Notes under the pieces: model-generated | Told to the model about the DNA's origin: nothing | What the model saw: the letters and a program-made list of their open reading frames with translations, nothing else | Databases searched by the model: none | Position numbers and translations under genes: made by a program | Shown here: piece after piece, positions 9,647 to 29,837 of the stretch | How positions within the stretch are numbered: position 1 is the stretch's first letter | Layout: every line of letters starts with the position of its first letter | DNA from: a virus | IMG/VR virus record: IMGVR_UViG_3300011440_000020 | Location: 1-32,014 of that record | Direction: 5' to 3' (one strand) | DNA length: 32,014 nucleotides

Positions 9647-11479
9647 ATGGCCAACAAAATCTCCGTCCTGATCGACGTCGCAACCGACAAAGCCGTCTCC
9701 GGGCTGAAAGGGTTCAAGGCGTCGATCAACGACGCCGACGGCGCAGTCGGCAAGATGAAGGCCGGGACGGGTGCGGCGTTCGATTCGATCAAGGCGCACG
9801 CCGGCCAGTTGGCTTTGGCGGGCGGGGCGGCGCTCGTCGGGTTCGGTGTCAAAGCCGTAGCCGCGTTCCAAGACACCGCCCTCGCGGCCGGGAAGATGGC
9901 CGACTCGTCCGGGCTCGCGGTCGATGAGGCGTCACGCTGGATCGCTGTCGGTGACGACATCGGTGTGTCCGCCGAGACGATGTCGAAAGGGTTCAACAAG
10001 CTCAACATCGAAACCGCTAAAGCGAACCCGCTGCTCGCCGAGTTGGGGATCACACAGCAACGCAACGCCGCCGGCCAGGTCGACGCCAACAAGACGATGC
10101 TCCACGCGATCGACGTCATCAAAGGCATCCAAGACCCCACCAAGAAAGCGCAGGCCGCCCAGGCAGCGTTCGGTAAGGGCTGGATGGAGATGGGCGAGCT
10201 CATCAACATGGGCTCGACCGAGATCGCTGCCGGCATGGCGAAGGTGTCCGACGCCCAGGTCATCGACGACAAAGAGTTGGCGAAGGCCCGAAAGTTCCGC
10301 GACGCCCTCGATTCGTTGCAGGACAAGTTCAAAGACATCGCCACGGAGGTCGGCGAGAAACTCGTGCCGGTCCTGTCCGATGTCGGGCCGATGTTGGAAA
10401 CGATCGGTGACGGCATCGTCATCGTCGCGTCAGCGACAGGTAAGTTCACCGGCGCCCTCTCCGATGTCAACGAGGCCGCCTACGACCTGGGCGCCGGGCT
10501 GGGCCGCGTCATTCACGGCACTGACGAAACAGTCGAGAATCTGCACGACGCCGAGCAGGCAGCCCGCGACATGTTCGACGGCCTCGCGTCAGGCATCACG
10601 ACCCTCGACGGGTTCATCGCCGTGTTGGATGAGAACAACGTCCAGTACACCGAACGCGCCCTGCTTATCAACGAGTTCATCGAACAACACCCGAAAGAAT
10701 CGGCGGCGTACAAAGAGAAGGCCGCCGTTGTCGGCATGTACGTCGAGATGCAGGAAGGGTTGAAGGGTGCGCTCGAGGACACGGGTGAGGCGACCGAGGA
10801 TCTGGCCCGCGAGAACGACCTGTTGGCGGATGCGATCCAGCGGACCCAGGATCGTTACGCCGACCTGAAAGGCGAACTCTCAGACGAGGAGGCGTTCCAC
10901 ACCGCCGAAGGGATGTGGACCGACCTCAAGCAGTCAGCGATCGACGCCTATACGGCGGCCGGTGAGAACGCCGACGACGCGGCGGCGAAGGCGTACGATC
11001 ATGCGGGTGCGGTGATCGCGGCGAAGCAGCAGGTGGTCGAGCTCGGCGAGAAGTACGCCGATCTGCCCGAGGAGGAGATCACCCGCATAGTCGCGATGAT
11101 CGACGAGGGCCAGTTGGCGGAAGCGGAACGCCGGTTCAACATCCTCGCCCGGAATCGCGAGATGCGGATCTCTGTCATTGCCTCCGGCGCGTCGGGCAAC
11201 TTCAACATTCCGGTGCATGGCTCGATCTCGATGGGTGCGACTGGCGGGATCGTCACGCAGCCGACCCTTGCGGTGATCGGTGAGGCTGGCCCGGAAGCGG
11301 TGGTGCCGCTGAATCGGACGCCAGGTTCGTCTCCGCTTCCGGCCATGAACGGCGGGACCGCTCCGATCAACGTGACGGTGAACGCGGGGTTGGGTGCGAA
11401 CGGTCGTGAGATCGCCGATGTGATCGTCGGGGAGTTGAAGAAGTACACGCGTCGTAACGGGCCGGGGTGGATGGGCTGA
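9647..11479 (+). CDS. Tail tape measure protein
   Basis: This 610-residue protein sets tail length and passes into the host during DNA entry. It is largely helical and has one hydrophobic segment near residues 54-73. The conserved C-terminal block TGGIVTQPTLAVIGEAGPEAVVPL is a hallmark of tape measures in actinophages. At roughly 1.5 angstrom per residue the tail would be about 90 nm, short to medium for a siphovirus. It starts at ATG with GGAGAGG upstream. The stop overlaps the next ATG (TGATG at 11477-11481). Confidence 0.93.
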   Translation: MANKISVLIDVATDKAVSGLKGFKASINDADGAVGKMKAGTGAAFDSIKAHAGQLALAGGAALVGFGVKAVAAFQDTALAAGKMADSSGLAVDEASRWIAVGDDIGVSAETMSKGFNKLNIETAKANPLLAELGITQQRNAAGQVDANKTMLHAIDVIKGIQDPTKKAQAAQAAFGKGWMEMGELINMGSTEIAAGMAKVSDAQVIDDKELAKARKFRDALDSLQDKFKDIATEVGEKLVPVLSDVGPMLETIGDGIVIVASATGKFTGALSDVNEAAYDLGAGLGRVIHGTDETVENLHDAEQAARDMFDGLASGITTLDGFIAVLDENNVQYTERALLINEFIEQHPKESAAYKEKAAVVGMYVEMQEGLKGALEDTGEATEDLARENDLLADAIQRTQDRYADLKGELSDEEAFHTAEGMWTDLKQSAIDAYTAAGENADDAAAKAYDHAGAVIAAKQQVVELGEKYADLPEEEITRIVAMIDEGQLAEAERRFNILARNREMRISVIASGASGNFNIPVHGSISMGATGGIVTQPTLAVIGEAGPEAVVPLNRTPGSSPLPAMNGGTAPINVTVNAGLGANGREIADVIVGELKKYTRRNGPGWMG

Positions 11480-18123: not shown

Positions 18124-20277
18124 GTGGCGTACACACACGACGACTTCAACCGCACCACCCCAGCCGGCCCCGGTGGCGGCACCCACGGCAACCCCTCCTA
18201 CGAGCTCGGCGCCGGTCACACCGCATGGAACGCGTCGGCCTCGTCGAACGGCTGCGTCATCTTCGACGGGAAGATGACCCAGTTCGAGAACTTCTCGTTC
18301 CACACCGTCGACATCTTCGCGACCGCATCAACCGGCGACGACCAGGCCGTCAGGTTCCAACTCAACAACTACAACGAACAAATCTGGGTGCTGCTCCGCG
18401 TCCACGACGACGTCATCACGAACGGCCCCGCCGCGAACATGGACGTCGATGCGGCGACCGGCAACGGCGCGATCTCGGTGCGGGTCCAGATGGAACAGGG
18501 CACCCCCGGCCAGGTCACCACCATCATCAACGGCAGCTACCAAGGCCCCGTCGACATCACCGGGTCGACCCGGTTCAACGACTCCACCCCCCACATCTGC
18601 GAAGTCCGTGTCATCTCGAACACCGTGTCTGTCCTCATGGACGGTGTCGAGGTGTCATCGCGGAACAACATGGGGACGTTGCCGTCGGGGTCGACCCGCC
18701 GTCACATGGGCATCCAGTTCGCCGGTGACAACAACCCGAAGTACCTCGAGAACTTGGAGTACGGCGACTACCCGCTGACGTCCACGGCGACGGAGGACAT
18801 CACCCCGTCGCTGTTCGCTGCCGGCGCACTGTTCGCTGCGGCGACGGGGACATCGATCACGCCGGTCATCCCCGCCAGCGACGCCGCCGACGACATCCTC
18901 GTGATGCAGGCGTTCTGCAACGCGTCGTCAACGTTCTCCACCCCGACGAACTGGACACCGATCCTCGACTCTGGCGGCGGATCGACCGCTGTCGACTCTG
19001 CGAACCTGTCCGCCGCGTGGTTCTGGAAACGGGCATCCGGGTCGGACGGCAACCCGACGTCGACCACGTCGGCGACCGGGTCGTCAACGATCGGGCTGTA
19101 CGGCCGGATCTGGGTGTACCGCAACTGCCTCTCGTCGGGCACCCCGTACGAAGACGCCACGGTCGCGGGGACACCGACGTTGTCGACGACGCCGCAGTCG
19201 GCGTCTATCGACACCACCGGAACGTTTCGGCTGGCCGTCTGCTATGTGTCCGTCGATGACGACAACACGCTCGGCACGAACTATCCGCCGAACCTGTGGT
19301 TGCCACACGCGACGACGTTCGCTCAGCCCCGCCTCGCGTCGACCACCGGCGGCGACGGCATGTCCGACGCGATTCAGCGGTGGATGCCTGCCTCCGGCAA
19401 CGTCGCCGCGGTCACGGTCGGCACGATGGCGTCGGACTACTGGCGCACACTCACACTCGCACTGCTCCCCGACGCCGGCGGCACCCCCACCCTCGTCGTA
19501 GCTGACGCCACCCACGCCCACAGCGCAGACAACGTCGCACTCACCCAACACAACGCGTTGGTGGTGGACGACGCGTTGCAGGCCCACACGGTCGATGCGG
19601 TGGCGCTGGTCCAGCACAACCTGTTGGCGGTCGCCGAAACTCTCCACGGCCACACCGTCGACAACGTCACGTTGACCGTGGGCGCCGGACTCGTCGTCGC
19701 CGACGCGTTGCAGGCGCACACGGTCGACAACGTCGACCTCACCCAACACAACGTTCTCGCTGTCGACGACGCGCTCCACGCCCACAGCGCAGACAACGTC
19801 ACGTTGACGGCAGCGGGCGGCCTCACCGTCCAAGACGCCCTACACGGCCACACCGTCGACAACGTGGCGCTCACGCAACACAACGTCCTCGCCGTCGACG
19901 ATGCCCTACACGGCCACACCGTCGACGAGCTCGGGCTGACGCAACACAACACCCTCGCAGTAGCTGACGCCGTCCAGGCGCACACGGCGGATGCGGTGGT
20001 GCTGTCTCAGCATGTGGTGCTGGTCGTCGCCGAAGCCGTCCACGCCCACACAGTCGACGCGGTAGCGCTCACACAGCACAACGTGCTGACGGTCGCCGAT
20101 GCGTTCCACGCCCACCTGGCGGAGCCGGCGCTGTTCCAAATCCCGATCATCGGCGGCGTCGCCACAGCGACCGTCATCTGGCGTGACAACGGCACCACCA
20201 CCGCCGCCTCGAGAGACACTGCGCTAGCCACGACCGGCGCAGCCCACAGCGCCGCAGGAGGAATCAGCCAGCCATGA
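18124..20277 (+). CDS. Large tail-fibre/receptor-binding protein with His-rich repeats
   Basis: This 717-residue protein starts at GTG with GAGAGGGG upstream. Residues 1-220 look like a concanavalin-type jelly roll (DDFNRTTPAG opening, VSVLMDGVEV and MGIQFAGDNN near its end). Residues 240-455 form a second beta domain (DDILVMQAFCNASS, TPTNWTPIL). From residue 457 there are nine 22-residue repeats and a partial tenth of the form LAVDDALHAHTVDNVALTQHNV. A short C-terminal part follows. Such proteins are minor tail or fibre proteins that touch the host. The repeated HxH pairs may bind metal, as in some trimeric fibres. Confidence 0.78.
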   Translation: MAYTHDDFNRTTPAGPGGGTHGNPSYELGAGHTAWNASASSNGCVIFDGKMTQFENFSFHTVDIFATASTGDDQAVRFQLNNYNEQIWVLLRVHDDVITNGPAANMDVDAATGNGAISVRVQMEQGTPGQVTTIINGSYQGPVDITGSTRFNDSTPHICEVRVISNTVSVLMDGVEVSSRNNMGTLPSGSTRRHMGIQFAGDNNPKYLENLEYGDYPLTSTATEDITPSLFAAGALFAAATGTSITPVIPASDAADDILVMQAFCNASSTFSTPTNWTPILDSGGGSTAVDSANLSAAWFWKRASGSDGNPTSTTSATGSSTIGLYGRIWVYRNCLSSGTPYEDATVAGTPTLSTTPQSASIDTTGTFRLAVCYVSVDDDNTLGTNYPPNLWLPHATTFAQPRLASTTGGDGMSDAIQRWMPASGNVAAVTVGTMASDYWRTLTLALLPDAGGTPTLVVADATHAHSADNVALTQHNALVVDDALQAHTVDAVALVQHNLLAVAETLHGHTVDNVTLTVGAGLVVADALQAHTVDNVDLTQHNVLAVDDALHAHSADNVTLTAAGGLTVQDALHGHTVDNVALTQHNVLAVDDALHGHTVDELGLTQHNTLAVADAVQAHTADAVVLSQHVVLVVAEAVHAHTVDAVALTQHNVLTVADAFHAHLAEPALFQIPIIGGVATATVIWRDNGTTTAASRDTALATTGAAHSAAGGISQP
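19492..20085 (+). repeat. Nine tandem 66-bp repeats inside the fibre gene
   Basis: Nine in-frame units of exactly 66 bases encode a 22-residue motif; a partial tenth starts at 20086. Several units share long near-identical DNA stretches, for example around 19845-19870 and 19904-19930, while others differ at silent sites. The array could grow or shrink by recombination and so change fibre length. Confidence 0.9.
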
Positions 20278-24503: not shown

Positions 24504-24667
24504 GTGTTGTGCCGTTGACGGATCCGGTGGATGACATCCATCGGTGGTCGTGTGCGGAGGTGGCGATCATCCGCGGCCACTATGCGGACGCCCAACGCCG
24601 CGTCGACGCCGAATACCGCAAGTTCGCCGCAGACATCGAACACATCGCCGCACAGGTCCAACCATGA
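24500..24667 (+). CDS. Hypothetical early protein (55 aa)
   Basis: This 55-residue helical protein starts at GTG overlapping the previous stop (GTGA) and ends in an ATGA overlap with the C5 methyltransferase gene. The helix CAEVAIIRGHYADAQRRVDAEYRKF is amphipathic and could form a coiled coil. Function is not recognised; its fixed link to the methyltransferase suggests co-expression. Confidence 0.5.
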   Translation: MSVVPLTDPVDDIHRWSCAEVAIIRGHYADAQRRVDAEYRKFAADIEHIAAQVQP

Positions 24668-25647
24668 CCTACACCGTGGGTTCGCTGTTCTCAGGCATCG
24701 GAGGGATCGACCTCGGCCTCGAACGCGCCGGGATGACTGTTCGGTGGCAGTCCGAGAACGACCCGTACTGCTGCCGCATCCTCGCGAAGCACTGGCCGCA
24801 CGTCCCGAATTTGGGTGATGTGACCGCGATCGATTGGAGCACTGTTGAACCCGTCGACCTCATCTGCGGCGGCTACCCCTGCCAGCCGTTCTCCCTCGCA
24901 GGGGCTCGAGCCGGAGAAACCGACGCCCGACATCTTTGGCCGTTCTTCGCCGCCGCCATTCGCCACCTACGACCCCGATACGCGTTGCTGGAGAACGTCC
25001 CAGGGCACCTTTCCCTGGGGTTCGGACGAGTACTCGGAGACTTGGCCGAGTGCGGGTACGACACGGAGTGGGATTGCATTCCGGCTGCCGCCGTTGGTGC
25101 CCCGCACCTCCGCTACCGCGTCTTCGTTGTTGCATACCCCCACCGCGAAAGCGAACCAGGCTTCACCGTCGATGCGGTCACGGGACCCAGGGTCGTGGTT
25201 CCCAACACCAACGGCCACACCGTACGGCAGCAACCAGTCGCCATCTTCGGGCGCCGCTGTGCGACCGTCGCTGCAGGCAATGGCAACAACTGGGATGTGG
25301 CCGACACCTCGAGCGTCCCCGAACGAGAATCGGCAGACCAAGCCGACCCCGTCACAGTTGGCCGGGAAGCACGGGCGATCGCTTGCGGCGGAGGTGAACT
25401 GGCGGACGCCGAAGGCGAGCGATGCCGCTCACTCGGGCCGTACAGCGCCGGCGAAGCCCGGGCAGACAACATCGCTGGACATGCAGGTGAACTCGCAGGA
25501 GGACACGCCTGGGCAGTTGAACCCGATGTGGGTCGAGTGGCTGATGGGGTTCCCCATCGGGTGGACCGACTGCGAGCCCTCGGCAACGCCGTAGTCCCCC
25601 AAGTAGCCGAACTCATCGGCCGGCGCATCCTCGAGGCAGCCGCGTGA
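24664..25647 (+). CDS. C5-cytosine DNA methyltransferase (Dcm type)
   Basis: This 327-residue enzyme transfers a methyl group from SAM to C5 of cytosine in DNA. Motif I is LFSGIGGIDLGLERAG at the start, motif IV has the catalytic Cys in GGYPCQPFSLAG, motif VI is LLENVPG, motif VIII is PHLRYRVFVVAY, and motifs IX/X appear as RVDRLRALGNAVVPQVAELIGRR at the end. The target-recognition part is about 110 residues. It has no restriction partner, so it probably protects phage DNA from host restriction. Its C-terminal half overlaps a long second frame described separately. Confidence 0.92.
   Translation: MTYTVGSLFSGIGGIDLGLERAGMTVRWQSENDPYCCRILAKHWPHVPNLGDVTAIDWSTVEPVDLICGGYPCQPFSLAGARAGETDARHLWPFFAAAIRHLRPRYALLENVPGHLSLGFGRVLGDLAECGYDTEWDCIPAAAVGAPHLRYRVFVVAYPHRESEPGFTVDAVTGPRVVVPNTNGHTVRQQPVAIFGRRCATVAAGNGNNWDVADTSSVPERESADQADPVTVGREARAIACGGGELADAEGERCRSLGPYSAGEARADNIAGHAGELAGGHAWAVEPDVGRVADGVPHRVDRLRALGNAVVPQVAELIGRRILEAAA
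24845..25594 (+). CDS. Overlapping frame inside the C5 methyltransferase gene (249 aa), possible second protein
   Basis: In the +1 frame a stop-free run covers most of the methyltransferase gene. Its translation contains YDPDTRCWRTSQGTFPW, YSETWPSAGTTRSGIAFRLP, WPTPRASPNENRQTKP and ends NPMWVEWLMGFPIGWTDCEP. These WPTP-rich segments and the EWLMGFPxGWTD end look to me like proteins I recall from phage genomes beside or inside Dcm genes; I cannot check this here. The first start is only a TTG (24845), so expression might need frameshifting or a non-standard start. It may also be a conserved shadow. Confidence 0.35.
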   Translation: MNPSTSSAAATPASRSPSQGLEPEKPTPDIFGRSSPPPFATYDPDTRCWRTSQGTFPWGSDEYSETWPSAGTTRSGIAFRLPPLVPRTSATASSLLHTPTAKANQASPSMRSRDPGSWFPTPTATPYGSNQSPSSGAAVRPSLQAMATTGMWPTPRASPNENRQTKPTPSQLAGKHGRSLAAEVNWRTPKASDAAHSGRTAPAKPGQTTSLDMQVNSQEDTPGQLNPMWVEWLMGFPIGWTDCEPSATP

Positions 25648-28119: not shown

Positions 28120-28440
28120 GTGCCGATCTCACCGACGCAGCTCACCCTTCGGCACCTCCGCGCCGAAGGGTGGCCGCTCGTCGAAGTCGTCGAACACTGG
28201 AACCCCCACGCCCGCATCCGCCAAGACCTCTTCGGCTTCATAGACGTCATCGCCGTACGCCCCAACCACACACTCGCCATACAAGCAACCACCGCCCCCA
28301 ACGTCGCCTCAAGGATCACCAAGATCGCCGACCACCCCAACATCGGCCCCGTACGCGAAGCCGGCTGGCAGATCGAAGTCTGGGGCTGGAAAAAGGTGAA
28401 GGGCCGCTGGACGCTGCACCGACGAATCGACATCTCATGA
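28120..28440 (+). CDS. Small PD-(D/E)XK-type nuclease, resolvase-like
   Basis: This 106-residue protein starts at GTG. RIRQDLFGFIDVIAVRPN followed by LAIQATTAPNVASRITKI is the pattern of a widespread small phage nuclease group: an Asp in the first strand and Q-x-T in place of the usual E-x-K, then VREAGWQIEVWGWKK near the end. Members are thought to cut branched or replicating DNA. It overlaps the following methyltransferase by ATGA, so nuclease and methylase are made together. Confidence 0.7.
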   Translation: MPISPTQLTLRHLRAEGWPLVEVVEHWNPHARIRQDLFGFIDVIAVRPNHTLAIQATTAPNVASRITKIADHPNIGPVREAGWQIEVWGWKKVKGRWTLHRRIDIS

Positions 28441-29837
28441 GCCTCGAGTACCGGATAGGCGACGTCTTCGACCGGCTCGCCGAAATCCCCGACGGCACCA
28501 TCGACCTGATCGTCACCTCGCCGCCGTTCCTGGCGTTGCGGTCCTACCTCCCCGCCGACCACCCCGACAAAGGCAAAGAGATCGGTTCGGAGGCGACCCC
28601 GGCGGCGTTCATCGACACCCTCCTCGAGCTCACCGCCGAGCTCGGCCGGGTGCTCGCCCCGCACGGCTCCCTCTGTGTCGAACTCGGCGACACCTACAGC
28701 GGGAGCGGGGGAGCCGGCGGCGACTACAACCCCGACGGGCTACGAGACGGCCAGGCGAAGTTCGACGGGTCTGCGTCACGGCACAAGGCGAACACCACCC
28801 GCTACACCTACGGCGAGAAGGACGGCAGCCGTATCGACGCTGGGCCCAGCAGCTCGCAGATCCGCAACGGCGGCGGCTCCGGTTGGCCGCTCGCCAAGAG
28901 CCTCACCGGCATCCCGACGCTGTACCCCTGGTCGCTCGCCTACGGCCGCAACCTCCTACGACGACCCCTTCTAACTCAACACCAGGCAATGACATACGCA
29001 GGAGTGATGGGCGAAACGGTCGGCTGGCGACGGGCACGCAACTTCATCAACACATTCGCCCCGGACCGCCACGACTTCCCGCCGTGGCGGATCCGCAACA
29101 TCATCGTCTGGGCACGCCCCAACCCGCCCGTCGGGGCGCTCGGTGACAAGTTCCGGCCCGCCACCTCATACATCACCGTCGCCTGCAAAGGCCCCCGCAG
29201 GTTCTTCGACCTCGACGCCGTACGCACCGACAACCCGCGCGTCAACGAAGACCCAGGCGGCTACCGCATGGTGTCGGGCGAACCAACCCACAACGCCGGA
29301 CCGCGATCACAGAACCCGGCTGGTGCGCCGCCGCTCGACTGGCACACCGACCTCGAAGACGGCGACTGGCTCTGGAAACTCCCCACCCAACCCTACAAAG
29401 GCTCCCACTACGCCACCTTCCCCCTCGAACTCCCCACCCGCCTCATCACCGCAATGTGCCCGTTGAAGGTTTGCACCGTGTGCGGGAAACCGAGTGAGCG
29501 GATCACGGATGCGGAGTATCACTCTCAACGCAATGGAGGCATGAAGGACGGCGAGATCATCCCGCCGGGCGGATGGCGATCGGGACGAGGCGGCACCGAC
29601 AGCGGCTTAAGCACCGGAAAGCTGATGGCGACTAAAGCTATTAAAACTCTCGGCTGGTCGGATTGCGGACACAACTCCTGGCGCACCGGCGTCGTCCTCG
29701 ACCCTTTCGCCGGCTCCGGCACCACCCTCCAAGCCGCCCAGAACGTCGGACGCCACGCCATCGGCATCGACCTCGACCCCCGCAACGCTGATTTGGCGCG
29801 GGACAGGGTCGGCATGTTCCTCGAGGTCAACCCGTGA
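28437..29837 (+). CDS. N6-adenine/N4-cytosine DNA methyltransferase, beta class order
   Basis: This 466-residue enzyme has the catalytic TSPPF at 27-31 and SAM-binding DPFAGSGTT near 422-430, i.e. catalytic motif first, as in beta-class enzymes. SPPF allows either N4-C or N6-A methylation. A Cys cluster near CPLKVCTVCGKPSERI and SDCGHNSW looks like a zinc ribbon common in phage methylases. Bases about 29505-29660, within this cluster, use codons rare elsewhere (TTA, ATT, ACT), suggesting local exchange. It probably blocks host restriction. Confidence 0.88.
   Translation: MSLEYRIGDVFDRLAEIPDGTIDLIVTSPPFLALRSYLPADHPDKGKEIGSEATPAAFIDTLLELTAELGRVLAPHGSLCVELGDTYSGSGGAGGDYNPDGLRDGQAKFDGSASRHKANTTRYTYGEKDGSRIDAGPSSSQIRNGGGSGWPLAKSLTGIPTLYPWSLAYGRNLLRRPLLTQHQAMTYAGVMGETVGWRRARNFINTFAPDRHDFPPWRIRNIIVWARPNPPVGALGDKFRPATSYITVACKGPRRFFDLDAVRTDNPRVNEDPGGYRMVSGEPTHNAGPRSQNPAGAPPLDWHTDLEDGDWLWKLPTQPYKGSHYATFPLELPTRLITAMCPLKVCTVCGKPSERITDAEYHSQRNGGMKDGEIIPPGGWRSGRGGTDSGLSTGKLMATKAIKTLGWSDCGHNSWRTGVVLDPFAGSGTTLQAAQNVGRHAIGIDLDPRNADLARDRVGMFLEVNP

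Follow-up and report, generated by a model that had tools for sequence, protein, structure and literature searches.

In the 32,014-base virus record IMGVR_UViG_3300011440_000020, the whole of which we call the window, a C5-cytosine methyltransferase gene (alpha, frame 0) and a second gene nested within it in the +1 frame (beta) probably encode the two chains of one heterodimeric C5-methyltransferase, with beta as the target-recognizing chain; we give this reading a probability of about 85%. At the level of the family, comparison of relatives shows two frames, an alternation of selection between them, and a conserved internal start. The large-domain fold of alpha is predicted from a structural model. 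For the window phage itself, we infer that beta would be translated, that it would join alpha in a heterodimer and take the recognition role, and that the enzyme would have a target, methylate it, and serve a biological purpose.

In C5-methyltransferases, the stretch from motif VIII to motif X contains the recognition region and motif IX. We propose that frame 0 would give alpha, the catalytic large domain with motifs I to VIII and X, with some 135 residues of unselected and probably disordered linker standing where the small domain would be. Beta would be made from the same mRNA by internal initiation at its own start inside alpha and would supply the recognition region, with its WPTP repeats, and motif IX. 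The two chains would most likely join as an active heterodimer, as in M.EcoHK31I, and frame 0 would be kept open through the recognition region only to attach motif X to alpha.

Two reading frames in one methyltransferase locus

The window encodes terminase, portal, head, tail, and endolysin proteins. Alpha lies at 24664 to 25647 on the plus strand, carries motifs I to VIII and X in frame over 327 amino acids, and its start overlaps the upstream open reading frame (ORF) in an ATGA. We use the residue numbers of alpha (W) for all genes; the third position of an alpha codon is the second position of a beta codon, and the first position of alpha is the third of beta. Beta (24845 to 25594, plus strand) is +1 relative to this intact Dcm frame. 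The best candidate for its start is the TTG at 24845, from which 249 codons run to the stop at 25592 to 25594 (256 codons from stop to stop), and we propose that its 249-amino-acid product is the small subunit based on a match to phrog_1008 and on the +1 constraint in relatives. The first-pass annotation of this DNA had described a +1 frame open for about 250 codons, a base-for-base correspondence between the motif text of the two frames, and a resemblance of the +1 text to annotated phage proteins. The run has the length described, the segments quoted are exactly antiphase, and the resemblance was confirmed by the phrog_1008 match (E = 1e-29) and by tblastn matches of beta in 116 of 50,697 phage records at 1e-5 (182 at 1e-3). 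Elsewhere in the window, a second methyltransferase-like gene lies 2.5 kb downstream (28170 to 29837; phrog_67, E = 3e-44), and a 717-amino-acid ORF at 18124 to 20277 had no PHROG match.

The alpha protein matched Pfam family PF00145 over amino acids 4 to 162 (E = 3e-42) and phrog_363 (E = 3e-81), with motifs I, IV (PCQ), VI (ENV), VIII (RxR), and X present in order. Among 60 alpha sequences, P72 and C73, E110, R150, R152, G307, and N308 were invariant or nearly so, and the motif X core GNAVVP (25582 to 25599, plus strand, frame 0) was near invariant. Where the LxPxWVEWLMGFP block would stand, frame 0 reads GRVADGVPHRVDR, and the block itself is in +1. The AlphaFold (AF2) model of alpha had pLDDT values of 86 to 98 for amino acids 1 to 160, mostly below 50 for 167 to 301, and about 95 for 311 to 327, where the C-terminal part forms ordered helices. 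This model superposed on M.HhaI over 206 aligned residues (VIA-align; Z = 27.2, rmsd 2.4, chain 10 to 323), and the superposition, as modeled, spans motif X and has space where the missing small domain would fit. On this basis, alpha is predicted to share the large-domain fold with motif X with M.HhaI and M.HaeIII. Unlike in the window, the recognition domain of these two enzymes is in the same frame, and ordinary phage C5-enzymes are constrained there in frame 0.

The beta translation has three recognizable parts. A segment from YDPDTRCWRTSQ to ETWPSAGTTRSGIAFRLPPLVP lies over alpha motifs V to VIII (24968 to 25102, plus strand), where the excess of +1 conservation rises from W 91. Repeats of the [WLF]PTP type follow (LHTPT, WFPTPTA, WPTPRA, and WRTPKA; 25130 to 25417, plus strand), in numbers that differ between betas. 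The most conserved block among 109 beta sequences, LNPMWVEWLMGFPIGWTD (25517 to 25570, plus strand), is the proposed motif IX of beta. The conserved parts of the family are YDPxTxSWKT, WPxSGMTRNG, and LNPMWVEWLMGFPxGWTD, and the window beta ends at SATP, before motif X. The text LNPMWVEWLMGFP is colinear with canonical motif IX, with weak E values of 0.0095 against the split-enzyme profile and 0.15 with the beta profile.

All 109 aligned betas matched both phrog_1008 and phrog_26627, and 85 of them matched phrog_27243. The label of phrog_1008 is "DNA methyltransferase," that of phrog_26627 gives no function, and neither mentions nesting in another methyltransferase; the inner frame apparently supplied at least part of the sequences behind all three families. 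Against the Pfam and NCBIfam models, beta gave nothing more than single weak rows at chance level. The AlphaFold model of beta had low confidence (pLDDT 59, pTM 0.29), and structure comparison of this model gave no match; a predicted fold of such low confidence is no evidence either way.

Alternation of selection between the frames

We compared 32 gene pairs with 2 to 25% divergence, with no gene reused, and counted the changes at each alpha codon position. The pairs came from virus contigs outside the window phage's own lineage, and several of them may share a clade. Over W 1 to 60, the third codon position varied more than the first in 29 of the 30 pairs with data, and the part that carries motifs I to VIII (W 1 to 158; 24664 to 25137, plus strand) is constrained in frame 0, with the third position most variable. 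Across the recognition region and motif IX (W 159 to 308; 25138 to 25587, plus strand), the constraint is in +1, and the first position varied more than the third in all 32 pairs. For W 159 to 283, the N/S codon counts over the 32 pairs were 1,164/89 in frame 0, 617/581 in +1, and 1,121/100 in +2, giving ratios of 13.1 for frame 0 and 1.06 for +1. The tail from motif X onward (25588 to 25644, plus strand) is again constrained in frame 0; past W 308, the first position varied less than the third in 26 of the 32 pairs, equally in 5, and more in 1. These results show that from motif VIII to motif X, frame 0 is not selected as protein and behaves like a noncoding frame.

The control set was 63 ordinary C5-methyltransferase genes from streptococcal phages, which gave 27 pairs. 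In their recognition region, the first position varied less than the third in 27 of 27 pairs, and the N/S count for frame 0 was 355/1,176. Since ordinary enzymes show the opposite pattern, the frame switch is a property of the family and not of the enzyme class.

Conservation in +1 exceeded that of synonymous shuffles with z scores of 12 to 13 before W 91 and then of 51, 66, and 38. This jump at W 91 means that roughly the first 30 residues of beta can vary almost freely, and there was little +1 constraint over its first 30 to 40 codons. Conservation in +2 also rose in the shuffle test because that frame shares the third position. The shuffle test replaced the N/S ratio of the catalytic region as evidence for dual coding; we dropped that ratio as a proof, since ordinary enzymes gave similar values in +1 (4.89 versus 4.12 and 3.59). 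Both frames look constrained only at about W 91 to 158 (motifs V to VIII) and at W 284 to 308. The earlier description of two conserved-looking frames thus held for +1 in the recognition region but not as strong constraint on both frames throughout. It had also proposed a comparison of selection on each frame, and the constraint on +1 exceeded that on frame 0 across the recognition region.

For the window itself, comparison with its five nearest relatives, which are 27 to 37% diverged, showed the first position varying more than the third in the recognition region in three of the five, clearly in L097 and L019, and at such divergence these pairs cannot settle the matter by themselves. At the level of the family, purifying selection specific to the second frame was found, which is a mark of overlapping genes.

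Of 152 distinct genes, 145 have motif IX in +1 and a frame 0 that extends to the end of motif X (132 by pattern and 13 counted from their Dcm matches). Among the remaining seven, three are split by an early frame-0 stop and four have motif IX in frame 0. When the +1 codons were shuffled synonymously, frame 0 stayed open in only 9.4 of 148 genes. The simplest reason that frame 0 is open though unselected is that motif X of alpha lies downstream. A count of frame-0 stops (0 of 148) was set aside as uninformative; the genes had been cut at their first frame-0 stop, and the split loci L006, L007, and L014 had been excluded beforehand. Four loci from phage records (L008, L013, L016, and L002) carry motif IX, for example, AEWMMGLPAGWVTD, in frame 0, and in two of these (L008 and L013) the WPTP/LPTP repeats are at least partly in +1. 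Genes of this type suggest that the recognition region has changed frame in the course of evolution.

Internal start, split relatives, and chance openness of the +1 frame

A +1 ATG is present at W 50 in 70 of 142 relatives, 77% of which have at least four Shine-Dalgarno bases upstream, and at W 86 in 37 of the 142 (68% with at least four such bases). The start-site codon counts were made over 128 nonredundant genes (<85% identity). Glu at W 46 was GAG in 47 of 50 cases versus 796 of 2,332 gene-wide (P = 7e-19), and GAA is commoner than GAG for Glu in nested genes overall. Similarly, the codon from which the +1 ATG at W 50 arises was NAT in 64 of 75 cases versus 2,113 of 5,584 (P = 3e-17). A typical start in relatives reads GAGGTNCCNAATC-ATG, with GAGG kept upstream at the synonymous level. 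Judged by these codon choices, beta in relatives keeps its own putative Shine-Dalgarno sequence and ATG. In the window, a possible Shine-Dalgarno sequence, GGAG (24836 to 24839, plus strand), stands 5 nucleotides before the TTG of beta, and the context of this TTG showed no conservation among the window's neighbors. Frame-specific constraint together with a conserved start in relatives indicates a real nested gene and not a shadow; of the two possibilities named in the first-pass annotation, a dual-coding gene or an annotation shadow, these data support the former.

The conserved start also bears on whether a separate beta exists at all. A programmed +1 frameshift near motif VIII would instead fuse the catalytic part to the recognition part, and the four split loci (L006, L007, L014, and L182), in which frame 0 ends just past motif VIII and a +1 ORF carries the rest, speak in favor of such a shift. 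In the nested form, however, a shifted product would be without motif X, the excess +1 constraint starts at W 91, upstream of any useful shift, and the Shine-Dalgarno sequence and ATG of relatives are kept at the synonymous level. We consider a frameshift improbable.

The split enzymes bear equally on the reading of alpha and beta as two chains of one methyltransferase. In split actinophage enzymes, frame 0 stops past motif VIII, and the same repeats as in beta, an EWMMG block, and motif X are found in the +1 ORF; examples are found in Streptomyces phages phiBT1 and Sebastisaurus (gp34/gp35, L006), Arthrobacter phage Andrew, and Mycobacterium phage Lorenzo (gp79/gp78, L182). When we aligned beta with a profile of five of these second ORFs (hhalign), the match had 99.5% probability and an E value of 4e-23 over 178 columns, which places beta between motifs VIII and X. 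The second ORF of Lorenzo was matched in 539 of 50,697 phage records. Pfam recognized none of the second ORFs submitted to it, which came from three split enzymes and a plasmid pair. The phiBT1 record states that the "DNA methylase may be inactive," with the first half alone annotated.

Beta could also be a real protein with a function of its own, such as anti-restriction or regulation, and not a methyltransferase subunit, and it has neither a confident fold nor a named family. Against a separate function, its homologues in the split enzymes have motif X on the same polypeptide and fill the position of the missing half, alpha is without a selected recognition region, and, in searches that favored good matches, beta was never found without alpha (176 and 83 loci). 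A separate function is therefore decidedly improbable in our view, and we retain beta as the second chain of the enzyme.

The openness of the +1 frame has to be judged against chance. The window run had a P value of 0.01 by synonymous codon shuffling within the gene and of 0.057 with the codon usage of other window genes, and it is only mildly unusual because the GC content is 66%. Other window genes have +1 open runs of up to 300 codons. The 300-codon run belongs to the tape-measure gene (9647 to 11479), is longer than that of beta, and is probably a composition effect. By itself, the window is weak evidence for beta, and the family comparison carries the case, with an openness of +1 that chance does not come near to explaining. 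From a set of 148 nonidentical genes, found in scans with beta and with the Dcm protein and in phage records, those with a GC content below 0.55 had +1 runs with a P value of ≤0.01 against synonymous shuffles in 98 of 98 cases, and the +2 run reached this level in 1 of the 98. The ordinary streptococcal C5-methyltransferases (L191 to L267) had a median +1 open run of 171 codons. These runs are a true shadow, with frame 0 alone selected in the recognition region, and serve as a useful warning control.

An annotation shadow at the window locus, with +1 open and similar merely through conserved, GC-rich Dcm codons, would fit the antiphase matches, the streptococcal runs, and the P value of 0.057 for the window alone, but it is extremely unlikely given that +1 and not frame 0 is constrained between motifs VIII and X, that low-GC genes are open beyond codon shuffles, and that the start site is conserved in relatives. 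The constraint data led us to reject GC content or codon bias as its source at the family level (window alone, P = 0.01 to 0.06). The first-pass annotation had expected a shadow to show matches always antiphase to Dcm and no frame-specific constraint; the matches were always antiphase (176 of 176 and 83 of 83 loci), but frame-specific constraint was present.

Spread of the nested pair and comparison with known two-chain enzymes

We kept 80 loci from each of two scans of virus contigs, with beta and with alpha. The beta match was in +1 to the Dcm match at 176 of 176 loci, a count over overlapping sets that includes redundancy. Among phage records, the beta matches include low-GC Paenibacillus phages, in one of which the inner frame is annotated as "g55 internal gene." Species genomes gave 353 stretches, of which 80 were kept, from many phyla as named in the records. 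With two plasmid loci and one Escherichia coli locus, these made 83 further loci, and beta was +1 to alpha in all 83. The loci were picked by good matches, and the rates are biased accordingly. Eighty of the 83 were nested. In the other three (L285, L322, and L340), the alpha frame is shorter and ends before the beta match does, and beta stays open; decay, a split, or a sequencing error may account for this. In searches that favored good matches, no stand-alone beta gene was found at the 176 or the 83 loci.

Only alpha is annotated at the E. coli and the two plasmid loci, and no restriction gene is named near them. Of 5,426 E. coli genomes, 69 contained DNA resembling at least part of the SEN4 gene, and at least 80% of the gene was covered in 2. 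On Paenibacillus polymyxa plasmid pAP1 (L178, 2242 to 3732), the C-terminal block is duplicated, with two LNPxWVECLMGFPLxWT copies in +1, stops between them, and two matching alpha copies in frame 0. In searches of the open-licence literature, we came across no earlier report of nested phage methyltransferases.

Lee, Kam, and Shaw in 1995 reportedly described the small gene of M.EcoHK31I as lying within its large gene but in a different frame, and such nesting of the small gene was found here in 145 of 152 distinct genes and at 80 of 83 further loci. M.EaeI is grouped with M.EcoHK31I (YGGCCR) as a two-polypeptide C5-methyltransferase. EcoHK31I is part of a restriction-modification system, whereas none is known for the window; the window pair probably acts as an orphan enzyme of the phage, with a role in protecting or marking its DNA.

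M.EcoHK31I and M.AquI are natural two-polypeptide C5-methyltransferases, and in the portion of the source available to us, the larger chain of M.EcoHK31I is given motifs I to VIII and X and a predicted recognition domain, with motif IX on the smaller chain, and the smaller chain of M.AquI is given the distal variable region and motifs IX and X (PMC3404938). Like the window alpha, the large chain of M.EcoHK31I has motifs I to VIII and X without motif IX. The two differ in the recognition region, which is predicted on the larger chain in M.EcoHK31I (same portion of PMC3404938) and which the selection data assign to the +1 product in the window. M.AquI and the actinophage pairs resemble the window in having motifs I to VIII on one chain and the variable region and motif IX on the other, and the actinophage pairs resemble it further in their WPTP/LPTP repeats and in a second ORF in +1. 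Unlike in the window, M.AquI and the actinophage enzymes have motif X on the second chain and only a short overlap; in the window, motif X is on alpha, not on the second chain as in the M.AquI type, and beta is nested. By this comparison, the window pair is most likely a further member of the M.EcoHK31I kind but with the recognition region on the small chain.

We lean toward the wider view, held less firmly than the reading of the window pair, that an entire clade of "Dcm" genes, found in phages and prophages of many bacterial phyla, encodes nested two-subunit enzymes in which selection switches frame at domain borders, with the catalytic domain in frame 0, the recognition domain in +1, and motif X in frame 0 again. 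The frame-0 text in between would be a translated linker of at least 100 unselected residues, open solely for the sake of its tail, and the recognition domain of M.EcoHK31I should be reassigned to its small chain. If this is true, many annotations of phage and prophage methyltransferases are half right, with the DNA-reading half missing or listed as "internal" or hypothetical, and specificity prediction and cloning from the annotated frame alone would fail. The family would also be an exceptionally clear system of overlapping genes, with hundreds of copies, split and ordinary enzymes as natural controls, and a frame switch at domain borders, and ideas on the origin and persistence of overprinted genes would be directly testable in nested methyltransferases.
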